Below, piece after piece: positions 10,172 through 25,284 of a stretch of 25,284 nucleotides of DNA. The notes below the pieces were generated by a model, which was not told the origin of the DNA, searched no databases, and was given only the letters and a program-made list of their open reading frames with translations. The stretch spans positions 1 through 25,284 of the IMG/VR virus record IMGVR_UViG_3300037155_000213; one strand, 5' to 3'. Position 1 is the first letter of the stretch, and every line of letters starts with the position of its first letter. This DNA comes from a virus. A program made the position numbers and the translations under genes.

Positions 10172-11518
10172 TCAGACCGCCTTGCGCTCGAGGAACCAGC
10201 CGTCTTCGCCACTCGCGGTGTCTGCCCATACGACCGCGATATGGTCGCGCGCGGACGTCGCCGCGAGTGTGGTGGAGATTCCGGCTTGGCTCACGATCGC
10301 TGCGGCCGAGGCGTTGTACTTCATGTTGGTGAGCGTCATCCCGTAGTCGGCGCGCTCGTATGGCGCGTTTGCCCCGGCGAGCATGTCGGTGATCGCGTTC
10401 ACCACGTACTCTGCTGCTGTGGCCGGGTGGGATGCGGCCAGTGCCCCGGCGATCCATCCTGCGGTGTAGAACCAGTAGCCGCCGTTCTGGTAGGTGCCCG
10501 CCGCGACCGCCAAGAAGAACGTCGACCAGTTGCCATCGGTGACCCTGCGTTGCCGGACCCCGCCGCGACAACCGGTCGCGAACGTGAAGAGGTCGCCCGC
10601 GCCGCCGGCTGCCTTGTCGAGCCCGTAGCGCCAGTTCAGCCAGTCGGAGGCCTGCGCGGTCTGCGTCGCGTTCAGGATCCCGCTACACACGGCGTATCCG
10701 GTGACGTCGGGTGACATGACATCGCTGTTGCCGCCGATGGTCCACTTCAGATAGCCGCCGTGTGCGTCGGTCGTGAACGTCGCTTGGATGGCCGACTGTA
10801 CCGCCGCGGCCGTGACGGCCCATGTCTCTTGGTTCGCGGCCCCGTTCGCGTGGCCGTACATGTCGGAGAGGGCGCGCGCCGCATTGCACGAGAGCACCGA
10901 GCAGCCGATGTTCGCGCCGGACAGGTTGATGCAGTCGAGGAATCCCCACGTTGTTGCGGGGCTGCTGCCGTACTGCGTCACGAGGTTTCCGGTGCGTGGA
11001 ATCGCGTTGTAGGCGTTCACTAGCGCGGTCGCGTTGGCCGTGAACCACGCCTGCCACGTCGCGTCCCAGGCGCGCGCGCTTCCGTACTGCCACGCGAGCT
11101 GCTGGACGATGACGTTGTTGTCCATGCTCGGCCGGCTGTTGAGCCGCCCGCTCGGGTTGATGCCGAAGTAGTCGCCCGGGCCCCATCCCACCTGTCCGCT
11201 TGCGCTCAGGTGGTCCGGGATGCTCCCGGCCGGATAGGTGCTGACCGAGGACGAGAGCTGCTTCGAGAGCAGCCAGTCGAGCATCCGGCGCTGGTCGGAA
11301 TCGCTGATGGTCGCGCCCGCCTCGAGCATGTAGAGCAGGTCGCGCGGCCAGAAGCCTCCGGCATAGCCCGGGCCCGGGTTGTAGTAGTAGCCGCCGCCGG
11401 TGTCCGTGATCGCATTGCGCGATGCCGCGACGATCGTGTCTCGCCGCGCAACGCCGTTCGCCGAGAGGGTGGCGTCGACCGGAACGGCTGCGGTCGAGAC
11501 CGCGTAGAGGTCTGCCAT
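10172..11518 (-). CDS. Six-hairpin glycosidase-like protein, probable virion-associated glycan hydrolase
   Basis: A 448-residue protein with the look of an (alpha/alpha)6-barrel glycoside hydrolase. GGFWPRDLLYMLEAG (55-68) recalls the W-x-RD segment of GH15-like and related six-hairpin enzymes, and further motifs at regular spacing (SRPSMDNNVIVQQLAW about 128-143; NPGPGYAGG; GYWFYTAGWIAGAL) fit successive helical hairpins. There is no signal peptide, as expected of a virion protein. It lies between two adhesin-like genes inside the head module, with 1- and 12-base gaps, so it is co-expressed with capsid proteins. A role in degrading a host surface glycan is plausible. Catalytic acids and exact family were not established. 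Confidence 0.6.
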   Translation of the reverse strand: MADLYAVSTAAVPVDATLSANGVARRDTIVAASRNAITDTGGGYYYNPGPGYAGGFWPRDLLYMLEAGATISDSDQRRMLDWLLSKQLSSSVSTYPAGSIPDHLSASGQVGWGPGDYFGINPSGRLNSRPSMDNNVIVQQLAWQYGSARAWDATWQAWFTANATALVNAYNAIPRTGNLVTQYGSSPATTWGFLDCINLSGANIGCSVLSCNAARALSDMYGHANGAANQETWAVTAAAVQSAIQATFTTDAHGGYLKWTIGGNSDVMSPDVTGYAVCSGILNATQTAQASDWLNWRYGLDKAAGGAGDLFTFATGCRGGVRQRRVTDGNWSTFFLAVAAGTYQNGGYWFYTAGWIAGALAASHPATAAEYVVNAITDMLAGANAPYERADYGMTLTNMKYNASAAAIVSQAGISTTLAATSARDHIAVVWADTASGEDGWFLERKAV

Positions 11519-13151: not shown

Positions 13152-13565
13152 CTAGGTCGGATTCGCGATCTCGATCTTCCACGCGGGGAAGTCGACGGTG
13201 TTGCCGGACGTGAGTGCCTGGCCGGTGCCGGTGGTGACATAGAGCAGCACGGAGTTGACCGTGTCGACCAGCGCCACGCACGCGAACGTGCCCGACGCTG
13301 TCACGGACACGCCGGTCTTGGCGCCGACGGTGACCTTGCGCCCGGACGTGTCACCAGCCGCCAGCGCGAAGTCGGTTCCGGCCATGGCCACGGATGCGAG
13401 CGCGTAGGTGGCGTTGGCCTCGGTGAAGGTCGCGGGGCTGTTGCCGGACCCGTTCACCGAGCAGGCGATCATCTTGTTGCAGGGTCCGAGCCCGGTCACG
13501 CCCGTCTTGATGACGTTGAGCGCGCCATCGAGAACGCCGGTGTTGATGGTCTTCGTAGCGGCCAT
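13152..13565 (-). CDS. Small capsid-associated (decoration-like) protein
   Basis: A 137-residue beta-rich protein with small residues dominating (Ala, Thr, Gly, Val). I chose the ATG at 13565 (MAATKTINTGVLDG), which follows GAGAGGA by about nine bases; the longer ORF reads back into a hairpin region. Size, composition and position just after the major capsid and a coiled-coil gene suggest a head decoration or minor head protein, but no specific family was recognised. The upstream gap holds two strong overlapping inverted repeats, so its expression may be set separately from that of the capsid. Confidence 0.65.
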   Translation of the reverse strand: MAATKTINTGVLDGALNVIKTGVTGLGPCNKMIACSVNGSGNSPATFTEANATYALASVAMAGTDFALAAGDTSGRKVTVGAKTGVSVTASGTFACVALVDTVNSVLLYVTTGTGQALTSGNTVDFPAWKIEIANPT

Positions 13566-13600
13566 GATGTGGTTCCTCTCGATGGTGGTGAGCGGGCTTC

Positions 13601-13669
13601 GCCCCCACAGCGCACGGATCACGTCGGTGCGCTGTGGGGGCGGCGCTGACCTCGAGGGCCAGCGCCGCC
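13601..13669 (-). promoter_or_regulatory. Two overlapping strong hairpins in a late-operon gap
   Basis: The 112-base gap between the coiled-coil gene (stop at 13678) and the decoration-like gene (start 13565) holds two inverted repeats. One is a perfect 15-bp stem (13601-13615 with 13627-13641, 11-base loop). The other is a perfect 10-bp stem (13639-13648 with 13660-13669, 11-base loop). They share 3 bases. Neither is followed by a T-run on the minus strand, so a mRNA-processing, stability or attenuation element is more likely than a classical terminator. Confidence 0.65.
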
Positions 13670-13677
13670 GCGCGGTG

Positions 13678-13953
13678 CTACTTGGCGGCCTTGTCGGCCT
13701 CCGCCTTGGCTGCGGCTTCCGCTTCGGCTGCGGCCTTGTCGGCCTCCGCCTTGGCTGCCTTCTCGCGGGCCTCGGGCGCGACCTTCTCGGTCGTCGACTT
13801 CATGCCGGCGATCGCCTTGACCGCCTTGATCTCGGACTCGATCGCCGCGACCAGGTCCTTGTCGCCCTTCGCCTTCGCGCCCGCGAGCTCGCGCTGATAG
13901 GCGGGGATGATGACGTCCTTGATCTGGACACTGTTGTCCGTGTGGAGCCTCAT
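13678..13953 (-). CDS. Ala/Lys/Glu-rich coiled-coil hypothetical protein
   Basis: A 91-residue protein, almost entirely helical: residues about 28-91 are rich in Ala, Lys and Glu with few hydrophobics. The last 25 residues are a low-complexity repeat (AEADKAAAEAEAAAKAEADK, with an 8-residue KAEADKAA unit occurring twice). The ATG at 13953 has a good site (AGAGGAGAAGG) whose first part lies in a small hairpin. Located directly after the major capsid gene, it might be a scaffold-like or head-associated factor, but the capsid protein carries its own N-terminal delta-like domain. I do not recognise the family. Confidence 0.65.
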   Translation of the reverse strand: MRLHTDNSVQIKDVIIPAYQRELAGAKAKGDKDLVAAIESEIKAVKAIAGMKSTTEKVAPEAREKAAKAEADKAAAEAEAAAKAEADKAAK

Positions 13954-20682: not shown

Positions 20683-20837
20683 GGCTTCCCGCCCTTCCAC
20701 ACCCTCGCCACCGGCGCGATCACCACGACCAGCGCCCTCCCGCACTTCGGGCACGGCACCGCGTCCACATCGCGCATCGCCCGCTTGACCTCGCCGCTCC
20801 ATCCACACTCACAGCGCATTGAGTAGACCACGCTCAC
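20679..20837 (-). CDS. Small zinc-ribbon protein
   Basis: A 52-residue protein starting at GTG 20837 (GGGGAGG six bases upstream, GTGA overlap with the previous stop). It has two Cys pairs, MRCECGW (Cys8, Cys10) and VPCPKCGRA (Cys29, Cys32), fitting a zinc ribbon; the first pair has an unusual C-x-C spacing. Ends in a basic tail. Probably a small nucleic-acid- or protein-binding factor; no specific function recognised. It lies between two other Cys-containing genes. Confidence 0.65.
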   Translation of the reverse strand: MSVVYSMRCECGWSGEVKRAMRDVDAVPCPKCGRALVVVIAPVARVWKGGKP

Positions 20838-21469
20838 GACGCCTCCCCGGTTCCGTGGCAGGTGCGGCAAGTCGTGAGATAGCCGGTCATTCCCTCGCTG
20901 TGCCGCATCCTACCGCTTCCTCCGCATGTCGGGCATACAGCGGATGCGGTGGTGGGTTCGAGGGCGGCATTGAGCAGGTCTGCGATGAGGTAGGCGCGTG
21001 CGCTGGCGCGGACGTTGTGCTCCTCGGTCATGGCGCTTCCGTACTCGAACGAACAGATGATGTCGTAGAGCGATGTCGTCCCGGCGTGGTGCGGAGTCCC
21101 GACGTACATGTGGTCGCCCAATCTCTGAACGGTCACGACCTTGTAGTCGTTGTCGCCACCTATATTCGCGTCGGGCAGGTGCCTCCCCGCCTCCACCAGC
21201 CGTGCGTACTGCTCGCGGAGGGTGGTGAGTTCGGCAGCAGAGTCGAACGCTGCCGCCAGCCCTGCGTTCCCGCGATGGTGCTGTACGAAGTCAGCGACGG
21301 CGCATCCGTGAGGAAGTCCAGCCGACTCACACGCCTCGTCGTACTCGACAAGGCGGCGCTCCAAGTCGCAGATGTAGACGTGGATTCGGTTGACCTCCAC
21401 GCCGTGGTTCGGAAGCGGAGGCAGCGCGTACAGGTCACGCATCGCCTCGTCGTGCCCATAGTCGCTCAT
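20834..21469 (-). CDS. Hypothetical protein with C-terminal DnaJ-type zinc motif
   Basis: A 211-residue protein. Its N-terminal 60 residues are helical and acidic with the motif HVYICDLERRLVEYDEACESAG. The middle (about 90-170) has a predicted coiled stretch (AAELTTLREQYARLVEAG) and an unremarkable domain. The last 35 residues contain CPTCGGSG and CRTCHGTG, i.e. two C-x-x-C-x-G-x-G units as in the DnaJ cysteine-rich domain, but only two of the usual four. No J-domain is present. The ATG at 21469 overlaps the previous stop (ATGA). I do not recognise a family for the N-terminal part. Confidence 0.7.
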   Translation of the reverse strand: MSDYGHDEAMRDLYALPPLPNHGVEVNRIHVYICDLERRLVEYDEACESAGLPHGCAVADFVQHHRGNAGLAAAFDSAAELTTLREQYARLVEAGRHLPDANIGGDNDYKVVTVQRLGDHMYVGTPHHAGTTSLYDIICSFEYGSAMTEEHNVRASARAYLIADLLNAALEPTTASAVCPTCGGSGRMRHSEGMTGYLTTCRTCHGTGEAS

Positions 21470-22278
21470 GCGCTCTCCTCCTCTGACGGCTTCAGGTGGG
21501 GGGCGTAGGTGCGGAGGAGGTGCGCCGGGTACTCTCCGTAGGGGTCGCACTCGAACTCGCGCGCATCGCGTTCCAGCACCGCCCTCGGCACCATCACCAT
21601 GCCGTCCTGCTGTGCGAGTGCTGCGCGGAGGGTGGCGAGATGCGCGAGGTACCCGTCCAGCACGTGTGTTCCGTCGTACTCGTCGTGAATGAGCGACTCG
21701 ATAGCGTCCAGCGCCTCGCTCACCGCCTCACTCGTGACGGGCTTGCGCTTCGACTCCGCGAACGTCTTGCACTCGGCGCAGTCCTCGTCGGTGCCACGTC
21801 CACGGCACAGAACCGCGTCGCAGACTTCCTCCATGTAGGTGACTCGCTTGCCTGTCCGCTGTGCGTAGGCAATCTCGTTCGCCGTCGAGCGCCCAATGTA
21901 GCCGCCCACGTTGATGACGTGGATGCGGTCGGAGAGGTCAATCTTGCGGAAGTGCAGCGCGTCGAGCATGACCTTGACCGCGCTCGGCTCGTCGTCCGTC
22001 CCGATGTCCAATCCTTCGAGATGCCCGAACAGGCCCACGGAGATGACAATGCGGCCTTCGAGGGTGAGGCGACGATTCTCCGCCCCGAACGCGTCACGGA
22101 AGCGCGTAGAACCGCAGAGCGTCACCACTTCGGGGCGCTCACTCGTGACGGGGTGGGCGTGCTGGTCGATGAAGGCGGCGACTGTGTGCCACGGGCTTCC
22201 TCCGCCTCCGTCTACCGCGAACTCGCTTAGGAACCCCAACGCCTCACGCGCCGCTTCGGGGGTGATGGGGTCGCTCAT
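21466..22278 (-). CDS. Nucleoside 2-deoxyribosyltransferase-like protein
   Basis: A 270-residue protein. Residues about 50-150 carry the recognisable pattern of a phage/bacterial NDT-like family: VVTLCGSTRFRDAF, LTLEGRIVISVGLFGH, ALHFRKIDLSDRIHVINVGG and YIGRSTANEIAYAQRTGK. Known NDT enzymes exchange bases on deoxyribonucleosides, and members of this superfamily also act in nucleotide salvage or signalling; the substrate here cannot be told. The last 100 residues are an unrelated helical extension with Cys154, Cys158 and Cys166/Cys169 (CAEC). Helical pieces on both sides (1-40 and 180-225) look like small phage proteins fused to the enzyme. The start at 22278 overlaps the previous stop. Confidence 0.8.
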   Translation of the reverse strand: MSDPITPEAAREALGFLSEFAVDGGGGSPWHTVAAFIDQHAHPVTSERPEVVTLCGSTRFRDAFGAENRRLTLEGRIVISVGLFGHLEGLDIGTDDEPSAVKVMLDALHFRKIDLSDRIHVINVGGYIGRSTANEIAYAQRTGKRVTYMEEVCDAVLCRGRGTDEDCAECKTFAESKRKPVTSEAVSEALDAIESLIHDEYDGTHVLDGYLAHLATLRAALAQQDGMVMVPRAVLERDAREFECDPYGEYPAHLLRTYAPHLKPSEEESA

Positions 22279-22679
22279 CTCGTTCCCTCCTCTATCTGCT
22301 GGGCGGCTGCGAGGGTGGCGGCGATTTCAGCATCGAACTCTGCACGCCACTTGTCGTAGATACGCTCTCCATGGCGGGGTCTGCCGATAACTTTGATGGC
22401 GATTATCTCCACCGCAGCGTCCAGCCGTGCTTGCAGGGTGGCGGCGTGGGTGCGCTCGGCTGCGATTGCTTCGACGGCCTCCTGCCGGAACAGCGCGGCG
22501 TGTGACTGCTTGCGGTAGCGCGCCTCGGTCTTGCTGCGGACGACACGTACCAGCGATGCCAGCCGTTCTTCGCTCATGCGCGACGGCATCGCCTTCCACG
22601 ACTCGCAACCAGCGTCAGCCAGTCGCGCTTCACGCTTGCAGACGGACTCGAACACGCAGGTCGGGCATCCCTCACTCAT
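22275..22679 (-). CDS. Hypothetical protein with N-terminal Cys motif
   Basis: A 134-residue protein starting at ATG 22679, overlapping the preceding stop by 8 bases (ATGAGTGA). The first 30 residues hold four Cys (CPTCVFESVCKREARLADAG, then a Cys at 25), resembling a small zinc-binding knuckle. The rest is helical and charged (ERTHAATLQARLDAAVEIIA; then AEFDAEIAATLAAAQQIEEG), suggesting a coiled-coil dimer. I do not recognise the family. Its stop overlaps the start of the NDT-like gene. Confidence 0.65.
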   Translation of the reverse strand: MSEGCPTCVFESVCKREARLADAGCESWKAMPSRMSEERLASLVRVVRSKTEARYRKQSHAALFRQEAVEAIAAERTHAATLQARLDAAVEIIAIKVIGRPRHGERIYDKWRAEFDAEIAATLAAAQQIEEGTR

Positions 22680-23070
22680 CGCGTGCCCCTTCCTGTGCCG
22701 CTTCCATGAGCTTGCCGCGTACCGATTCCGGGTCGAAGTGGCGCCGGACCGGGGCATGGACCTCGCGTATCTGGATGCCGCCCATGCTCTCGATCGGCTC
22801 CGACTCCCGCTCAAGCCGCTTCGTGAGGTTGCCCCACTCGTTGTCGGCGTCCTGCGCGAGCCGGGTCAGCCGCCTGACCGCGCCGGCGCATTGCTCACGC
22901 CCTGGGGGACGGCTTCCCGGCTTGTTCGTGTGCCCGCCGCCCGAACTCGATACGCGCGGGTCGTTCGCATCGGCTATGCAGCGGGCCGCGTGGATGAACT
23001 TGGCGACGGCCGCGACCACGCTCGGGTCGCTGATCTCGTGCAGTTCGAGGATGGTGTCAGCGGGGATCAT
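22672..23070 (-). CDS. Hypothetical helical protein
   Basis: A 132-residue protein starting at ATG 23070, overlapping the replication gene's stop (ATGA). It begins with helices (DTILELHEISDPSVVAAVAK, FIHAARCIADAN), has a Gly/Ser/Pro-rich linker at about 40-60, and a second helical half with a coiled-coil-like segment (LAQDADNEWGNLTKRLERE). It follows the replication gene directly, so a replication-accessory role is possible, but no family was recognised. Confidence 0.6.
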   Translation of the reverse strand: MIPADTILELHEISDPSVVAAVAKFIHAARCIADANDPRVSSSGGGHTNKPGSRPPGREQCAGAVRRLTRLAQDADNEWGNLTKRLERESEPIESMGGIQIREVHAPVRRHFDPESVRGKLMEAAQEGARDE

Positions 23071-23702
23071 CCGCGCCTCGCTTTCATGTTCGCGATGGTC
23101 TGCTTCACTTGCTCCTGCACTTCTGCCGGAATAGTCGGCCCGGCCTCTTGGACGGGTCGGGGCGACTCATCGCCTACAACGGGTTCTTGATCTAGCCCTG
23201 TCCTGACCTGCCCTAGACCGGGCAGGACAGGGCTAGACTGGGCAGGACAGGACAGGGCATCACCTGAGTCCCTGTGTTCACTCGGTGTACACTCGGTGTA
23301 CACATCGGAGTAACGACCCCTTTGAGCACCGCTTTTGTCGTTTTCCCAGACAATCCAGCGAGGCAGCGGAAGCGTCGGCGGTTGCGGATTTCGCGGCCGT
23401 TCGTGCTCGCTCATCGTCGGGATGTACAAGCAACGCGTCCCGGAGCCCTTGTACGGCACCAGTTTCTTCTGCCGAACGAGCTCCTTGCGCCATTCGGTCA
23501 TCGCCTCGACGCTCATGTCGTCGTCCAGGGGCCCGGACCACGCGGCGATCTTCCAGCCCAGCGGATCATCCTCGACGCAGCACGAGTCCTCGGCCATCGC
23601 CCACAGCGACTGGTAGAAGATGCGCTTGAGGATGGGCCACCGCTTCATGGTGGGGTCAGTCCAGAAGTCACCTTTTACCATCCTGTTTCGGAGGCGACTC
23701 AC
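23067..23702 (-). CDS. Replication initiator-like protein (winged helix N-terminus)
   Basis: A 211-residue protein. Residues about 8-105 follow the pattern of phage replication (replisome-organiser-like) winged-helix domains: MVKGDFWTDPTMKRWPILKR, FYQSLWAMAEDSCCVEDDP, a helix-turn segment around DDDMSVEAMTEWRKEL, VRQKKLVPYKG and RCLYIPTMSEHERP. Residues about 110-190 form a low-complexity Ser/Pro linker, and 191-211 a basic helix. I chose the GTG at 23702, overlapping the ParB stop (GTGA); an internal ATG at 23681 lacks a ribosome site. The linker-coding DNA holds the iterons and inverted repeats described as a candidate origin, as in the lambda O gene. Confidence 0.75.
   Translation of the reverse strand: MSRLRNRMVKGDFWTDPTMKRWPILKRIFYQSLWAMAEDSCCVEDDPLGWKIAAWSGPLDDDMSVEAMTEWRKELVRQKKLVPYKGSGTRCLYIPTMSEHERPRNPQPPTLPLPRWIVWENDKSGAQRGRYSDVYTECTPSEHRDSGDALSCPAQSSPVLPGLGQVRTGLDQEPVVGDESPRPVQEAGPTIPAEVQEQVKQTIANMKARRG
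23192..23236. repeat. Long inverted repeat inside the replication gene
   Basis: CTAGCCCTGTCCTG (23192-23205) is matched by its perfect reverse complement at 23223-23236 (14 bp, 17-base spacer). A second inverted pair, CCTGCCC/GGGCAGG (23207-23213 with 23220-23226), is nested and overlaps the right arm, so two alternative structures exist. Next to it GGGCAGGACAGG occurs twice (23220-23231, 23240-23251). The coding effect is a Ser/Pro/Gly/Gln linker, consistent with DNA structure rather than protein being selected. Confidence 0.7.
23274..23306. repeat. Three tandem 11-bp iteron-like repeats (candidate replication origin)
   Basis: Units GTGTTCACTCG (23274-23284), GTGTACACTCG (23285-23295) and GTGTACACATC (23296-23306) follow without gaps, each built on a GTGTACAC-type palindrome and exactly one DNA turn long. 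They lie in the linker-coding part of the replication-initiator-like gene, next to the inverted repeats at 23192-23236. This matches the layout of origins inside initiator genes. Origin activity is inferred. Confidence 0.6.
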
Positions 23703-24118
23703 CGATGTTCCAGTCTCGACGCGAGCAACTCGGTCAGCGCATATAGCGGAGTCGGGCCGCACACGGTTCCATTGAGTGGAATCCCGTGGATGATCTTGTG
23801 ACACGCCGGGTGCAGGAGCAGGAGGTCGTCGGTCCGTACGGTGTTCTCGGCGATGAGCGCGGCGATCTGCATGTGCTCGTCAACGGTGTCATGCACGACG
23901 GCCGGTATGGTGGACTGCTCCGCGAGGATAGACGCCTCGACGCGGCGGTGTCCGGCGATGAGCGTATAGCGGTCGCCAGCGCGCGCCACGACGATGGGCT
24001 CCACGACACCCTGCTCGCGGATGCTGTCCGCCAGCGGCGTGAGGTCGCCCATGTCGAGTCGCGGCTGCGCGGGATTCGGGTCGATCAGGGACAGGTCAAG
24101 ATGCGCGAACTCAGTCAC
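23699..24118 (-). CDS. ParB-domain protein with HNH-like C-terminal tail
   Basis: A 139-residue protein, GTG start at 24118 in a GTGA overlap. Residues about 8-96 are a ParB/Srx N-terminal domain: IDPNPAQPRLDMGDLTPLAD, SIREQGVVEPIVV, then the nucleotide-binding motif GHRRVEAS (56-63) and IAALIAENTVRTD. Instead of the usual helix-turn-helix, residues 98-111 read DLLLLHPACHKIIHG, the pattern of the C-terminal end of an HNH nuclease (Cys106, His107, His111), followed by a short unrelated tail. No frameshift is visible. Such ParB-like phage proteins may act as nucleases or CTP-dependent switches; the chimera's function is unclear. Confidence 0.75.
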   Translation of the reverse strand: MTEFAHLDLSLIDPNPAQPRLDMGDLTPLADSIREQGVVEPIVVARAGDRYTLIAGHRRVEASILAEQSTIPAVVHDTVDEHMQIAALIAENTVRTDDLLLLHPACHKIIHGIPLNGTVCGPTPLYALTELLASRLEHR

Positions 24119-25077: not shown

Positions 25078-25284
25078 TCAGCGCGTTCGGATCCCATAGA
25101 TGCGAACGCCGGCCTTCGTCAGCGCGGAGAGGCCGGACGGGTCCACGATCTGGTTGCCGCCGAGCCCCAGCGTCTGCAGGTTCGTCAGCGCGGAGAGGCC
25201 GGACGGGTCCACGATCTGGTTGCCGTCGAGCCAGAGCGTCTGCAGGTTCGTCAGCGCGGAGAGGCCGGACGGGTCCACGATCTG
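25078..25284 (-). CDS. Leucine-rich-repeat protein, C-terminal part (truncated by window)
   Basis: The C-terminal 68 codons of an ORF open to the window edge. It contains consecutive 22-residue LRR units (LSALTNLQTLWLDGNQIVDP) typical of internalin/bacterial LRR proteins, ending in the short cap KAGVRIYGIRTR. Two full units and the start of a third are visible. The upstream part, including any domain that tells its role, is missing. LRR genes are unusual in a phage early region; it may be a phage accessory or a recognition protein. Fifty-seven bases separate it from the next ATG. Confidence 0.75.
   Translation of the reverse strand, partial: QIVDPSGLSALTNLQTLWLDGNQIVDPSGLSALTNLQTLGLGGNQIVDPSGLSALTKAGVRIYGIRTR
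25117..25284. repeat. 66-bp tandem repeats in the LRR gene
   Basis: Units begin at 25117, 25183 and 25249 (the last cut by the window end). The first two are identical at 63 of 66 positions, and two of the three changes alter residues (G/W and G/D) on the exposed LRR strand. Such near-identity means recent unit duplication. Confidence 0.85.

Follow-up and report, generated by a model that had tools for sequence, protein, structure and literature searches.

The initiator gene and its neighbourhood

The window, by which we mean the whole stretch of DNA analysed, is a linear IMG/VR virus fragment of 25,284 bp and 67% GC, and its recognisable genes all lie on the minus strand. These comprise genes for the small and large terminase subunits, portal, prohead protease, major capsid, tail and tape-measure proteins, and early genes fill the window from about 20 kb up to its right end. 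Among them are three genes of one operon, the middle one carrying the repeats that concern us here:

23699..24118, minus strand: gene for a 139-aa ParB_N-domain protein (PF02195, 2.7e-19), upstream of the initiator gene in the same operon
23067..23702, minus strand: replication initiator gene, 211 aa, GTG start at 23702 (PHROG profiles, AlphaFold2 model, 4-bp overlaps)
23358..23690, minus strand: winged-helix-coding part of that gene, matched by PHROG 2149
23258..23357, no strand: AT-richest 100 bp of the whole window (only 48% AT), a candidate unwinding element adjoining the repeats
23292..23302, minus strand: 11-bp iteron 1, TGTACACCGAG, exact copy, lag-11 period
23281..23291, minus strand: 11-bp iteron 2, TGTACACCGAG, exact copy
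23270..23280, minus strand: 11-bp iteron 3, degenerate TGAACACAGGG, 8/11 identical, abutting iteron 2
23191..23258, both strands: second block of GGGCAGGACAGG-type G-rich repeats with a 5-bp period, two plus-strand copies and one inverted on the coding strand
22672..23070, minus strand: 132-aa gene without assigned function, downstream of the initiator gene in the same operon

The open reading frame of the initiator has a longer form (23067-23804). Since homology starts only at residue 39 of that form, and since translation from the GTG at 23702 would give a 4-bp overlap with the end of the upstream ParB_N gene, matching the overlap of the downstream gene with the initiator stop, we take 23067-23702 (211 aa) as the gene. 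Its product matches PHROG 2149 (E 5.9e-12 to 9e-12), 1408 (3.4e-8) and 16167 (5.1e-6) from residue 5 to residues 115 to 139; all three are annotated 'replication initiation protein', and these profiles assign the gene to the phage replication initiators of the PHROG 2149/1408 type.

An earlier note on this DNA had placed the repeats in the low-complexity linker-coding part of a winged-helix replication gene, and both halves of that description hold. Alongside the profiles, an AlphaFold2 model has a confident N-terminal winged-helix-like domain (residues ~10-100) and a final helix (193-210), with a tail predicted to be disordered (pLDDT <50 at residues 135-143 and 149-168). Viral structure matches of the model include replisome organizers; a fold search of the PDB returned generic winged helices only (E >0.05), and the family has no sequence relative among solved structures. 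Neither a C-terminal domain match nor a recognisable helicase-loading domain was found in the window's initiator with Pfam and PHROG, and a C-terminal DnaT/DnaD-like domain is not universal in the family, the Pfam DnaT profile matching two of 30 members.

Some neighbouring products also merit description. By eye, the C-terminus of the ParB_N protein (LLLLHPACHKIIHG) is reminiscent of how an HNH nuclease motif ends; this protein is possibly a ParB-HNH fusion. The 132-aa product downstream of the initiator has no credible family match in Pfam or PHROGs, and the same databases gave no match for a 448-aa product encoded among the tail genes (10172-11518, minus strand). The C-terminus of a 238-aa product (20834-21550, minus strand) weakly matches the DnaJ zinc finger (CXXCXGXG).

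Repeats in the initiator gene are maintained as DNA

The array had previously been described as three abutting 11-bp iterons; two of these are exact copies and lag-11 periodicity is detected, and the third unit is the degenerate one listed above. The second block contains the perfect 14-bp inverted repeat that had been reported, CTAGCCCTGTCCTG (23192-23205) and CAGGACAGGGCTAG (23223-23236), which in extended form matches at 17/18 positions. The 12-bp direct repeat GGGCAGGACAGG is likewise exact, at 23220-23231 and 23240-23251, and lies inside a 19-bp repeat (95%) with a spacing of 20; Tandem Repeats Finder calls periods of 5 and 20 in this block. Together the repeats encode initiator residues 134-144 and 149-171, which is to say the disordered tail, and neither GTGTACACCGAG nor GGGCAGGACAGG has a match with <2 mismatches elsewhere in the 25 kb.

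The repeat score of this tail is 50, against a mean of 4.5 over 69 tiles of the same size from the window, two of which reach 50. The scan shows two other repeat-rich places, the leucine-rich-repeat end at 25.1-25.28 kb and a region near 13.55-13.75 kb. At the former, 66-bp tandem repeats that are almost identical (97% matches; 25078-25284, minus strand) encode a leucine-rich-repeat-like product that continues past the contig end; at the latter, inverted and direct repeats cluster between and inside head genes (~13541-13753).

When the codons of the tail were shuffled synonymously with the protein kept (n=300), a score of 1.3 was expected against the 50 observed (p 0.003). None of the repeat offsets (11, 20 and 25) is divisible by 3, so the copies sit in different frames and cannot be the by-product of a repeated peptide. 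This frame-breaking spacing, and the failure of codon shuffling to reproduce the repeats, indicate that they are maintained as DNA; lambda O, included as a positive control, is positive in the same test.

Maintenance of the nucleotide sequence could in principle serve the transcript, with the inverted repeats forming an mRNA hairpin that acts as an attenuator or as a translation or stability signal, and the minus-strand RNA of 23185-23310 does fold stably (-60.5 kcal/mol, z -4). We consider this very improbable, given that the segment contains no U-tract terminator, that it has no match in Rfam or as a tRNA, that the relatives described below have mostly direct repeats with a 10-11-bp period rather than hairpins, and that a hairpin gives no account of the 11-bp array.

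Recurrence in distant relatives and co-variation with the initiator

No close relative of the window was recovered, whether with protein or DNA patterns in IMG/VR, with megablast against phages or with its protein against GTDB genomes, and a plasmid search gave chance-level matches only. Our family set therefore consists of distant relatives, 158 IMG/VR loci fetched via family alignments together with loci from annotated phages, those tested being roughly 16-29% identical to the window's protein. Absence of the repeats from close relatives had been named beforehand as grounds for abandoning an origin; the distant relatives available here mostly carry repeats. In 101 of 128 distinct initiators no tile of the locus is more repetitive than the one coding for the tail, where about 10 such cases would be expected. 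Among 70 representatives (69 clusters at 70% identity and the window), repeats number 5.4 per kb in the tail and 0.63 outside it. Repeat offsets are distributed almost neutrally by frame in the tails (85/62/59) and are predominantly in-frame elsewhere (279/45/47), and the codon-shuffle comparison for these representatives gives 1678 observed against 122 in the shuffles.

The tail arrays upstream of the G-rich tract peak at lag 11 (z 17.8), lag 22 (z 12.8) and lag 10 (z 10.8), with most other lags near background, and a 10-11-bp period (>99th percentile at lag 10 or 11) is present in 46/70 representatives against two at control lags; the window's own array falls outside the stretch examined in this test, its lag 11 having been scored separately. 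A second set of 99 sequences, <80% identical to the first set and to each other, gave 74/99 against four. The in-gene arrangement of repeats, at about the same codons, is thus common to most of some 170 distant relatives. Short tandem repeats in a disordered, weakly constrained tail might be suspected to have arisen neutrally, by slippage or tandem duplication that the linker tolerates. Yet neutral change of this kind predicts neither that distant relatives should share a 10-11-bp period at the same codons nor that iterons should track one residue of the protein, as set out below, and we regard it as very unlikely.

The surroundings of the iterons are more variable. An AT-rich neighbourhood is weak as a family trait (mean rank 0.39 vs 0.5). 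Directly 3' of the iterons, about half of the family carries a second block, a coding-strand purine or GGAACAGG tract with a 5-8-bp period, and purine runs of at least 18 occur in 33/70 tails against 1/68 downstream stretches. Among the papers listed in a literature search for the tract sequences, none was relevant. Examples in the relatives' initiator tails are:

L022, 4429-4553, coding strand: purine/GGAACAGG tract
L043, 3305-3430, coding strand: purine/GGAACAGG tract

We considered whether the window shares this coding-strand purine tract and rejected the idea, its longest purine run being 7; the window's second block is instead G-rich, with a 5-bp period and copies in both orientations. 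Six initiators (L104, L105, L126, L127, L148 and L166) have an apparent in-frame HNH endonuclease insert that separates the winged helix from the repeat-bearing tail, borne out by profile for L104 and L127, and the repeat block is displaced downstream along with it.

If an initiator binds the repeats in its own gene, the iteron should change with the protein, and there is one residue with which it does. Sorting iteron cores into TCGCGA and TCASTGA splits a single alignment column perfectly (D in 14/14, N in 14/14; next best column 0.79), namely the residue that follows H-Q-x-[IV] where the winged helix ends. With initiators grouped by this residue and the count restricted to DNA past the motif, the first set contains 22 cases of H-Q-x-I-D with TCGCGA, 18 of H-Q-x-I-N with TCANTGA and none of either crossed combination (22/0/0/18). 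The rule was found in this set by column search, so that the second set is its test; there the counts, in the same order, are 9/0/1/13, the one exception having the odd context HQHINPR. In each class, sequences with neither core make up about half to most of the total, the extreme being D in the second set (57/66). Serine at this position pairs with TCCGGA (mean 1.5 vs <0.1 for D and N), a post hoc observation in eight sequences. Contacts of asparagine with adenine and of aspartate with cytosine would be compatible with such a rule.

Shared descent weakens these counts. Residue and core switch together about six times on the best tree, always in the predicted direction, but only two of these co-switches lie on well-supported branches, so the tree alone does not statistically secure the phylogenetic independence of the rule. 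Nevertheless, since iteron core and one protein residue change together, the initiators of this family very probably recognise the iterons in their own genes. The window stands outside the D, N and S classes, with R at the rule position (H-E-R-P-R-N-P) and the core GTGTACAC, and there is no second example of this pairing among the sequences compared.

Co-variation of this kind indicates recognition, not its purpose, and the repeats do belong to the coding strand of genes coupled in one operon. They could accordingly be an operator or silencer, bound by the initiator in autoregulation or by some other regulator, with the origin elsewhere. Against this, they lie ~400 bp inside the gene, away from any promoter position, a consensus scan of 22.6-24.3 kb found no sigma-70-like promoter, and repeats inside initiator genes have been shown or annotated to be origins in lambda, phage L and SPP1 (PMC5043065, PMC8022706, PMC6316719). 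An operator seems to us unlikely.

A candidate origin and its parallels

Because the gene is identified as an initiator, the repeats are kept as DNA, the arrangement recurs across the family with its residue rule, and the lowest-GC 100 bp of the window adjoins the array, we regard the window's repeats as a candidate lambda-type replication origin inside the gene of its own initiator, with a probability of about 0.85. Counted against this are the arginine at the rule position, the lack of a purine tract, the lack of a helicase-loading domain and the weakness of the GC-skew minimum, a local one at 23604 (p 0.04) that we do not count as evidence.

In our proposal, the 11-bp iterons (23270-23302), being helically phased, are the binding sites of the winged-helix initiator, whose copies would probably line up cooperatively along one face of the DNA. 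The AT-richest stretch (23258-23357), the G-rich block (23191-23258) or both might then be opened or used in helicase loading, and replication would start there, in parallel with the action of O at ori-lambda (PMC5043065) and of gp38 at SPP1 oriL (PMC6316719). For the family as a whole, we incline to a broader reading. In this widespread group of phages and prophages, from actinobacteria to proteobacteria, each initiator gene would house its own origin of phased 10-11-bp iterons, often followed by a G-rich tract, with H-Q-x-I-D, -N or -S setting the core as TCGCGA, TCANTGA or TCCGGA respectively.

Origins formed by iterons inside an initiator gene are already known, and phage L, lambda and SPP1 provide the precedents. 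The nearest parallel to the window is gene 18 of the P22-like phage L, in which six imprecise 11-bp repeats (TGTCCAACGGA) inside the initiator gene are annotated as a putative origin (PMC8022706). In both, an 11-bp in-gene array begins at codon 132; the phage L initiator, however, belongs to PHROG 345 (O-like) and not 2149, its iteron sequence is different, and its origin is an inferred one as well. In lambda, O acts at ori-lambda, inside gene O (PMC5043065), and as in the window the iterons and an adjoining AT-rich region lie 3' of the part encoding the DNA-binding domain; lambda iterons are 18-19 bp long at a 20-24-bp spacing, with a dimer on each, whereas those of the window are 11 bp. A profile comparison of the window's family with lambda O found no homology (hhalign probability 0.7%), the sole tie being that both match PHROG 5810, and we understand the window's system as working like lambda O and place it in a separate family. 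Older work on the Streptomyces linear plasmid pSLA2 is said to have located iterons within rep1. The lambda-type parallel that the earlier note drew is sustained by in-gene repeats in lambda O, in phage L gene 18 and across the window's family. SPP1 is similar in arrangement, gp38 binding direct repeats within gene 38 (oriL), which also carries an AT-rich unwinding element (PMC6316719), but has a second origin. Neither phased 10-11-bp arrays across PHROG 2149-type initiators nor the residue-iteron rule was found in the open-licence literature searched.

For the window, these results turn a guess into a testable origin candidate of ~170 bp. More widely, they suggest that many phages and prophages have their origins inside a gene annotated merely as 'replication initiation protein' or 'hypothetical', and the residue-to-DNA rule predicts which origin each initiator uses. 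If this is true, both origin and specificity could be read from sequence alone in many uncharacterised phages, the GTGTACAC variant of the window included.

Also close to the window's system are the 'RepA-like replication initiators' of actinobacteriophages (Charlie, Fishburne, Matteo, prophiGD102-1, pMLP1 and Alderaan), of which the tested members match PHROG 2149 and carry in-gene tail repeats as the window does; their second block, unlike the window's, is of the GGAACAGG type, on the coding strand with a 7-8-bp period. A literature search found no published origin for these members. For other mycobacteriophage RepA systems, a study of extrachromosomal mycobacterial prophages did not succeed in locating the origin and suspected it to lie upstream of repA or within repA itself; direct-repeat parS sites are found beside repA in mycobacteriophages (PMC7157519). 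That arrangement, and the overlap of the ParB_N gene with the start of the initiator gene, might suggest that the window's repeats are parS for the neighbouring protein. This we find barely credible, as that protein is 139 aa long with ParB_N as its only Pfam domain, no ParA turned up in the proteins scanned, and the repeats also occur in annotated relatives whose displayed neighbourhood includes no ParB gene. On the reading of the repeats as an origin, the tail-coding part of the initiator gene is a definite segment in which to seek the origin in family members such as prophiGD102-1.
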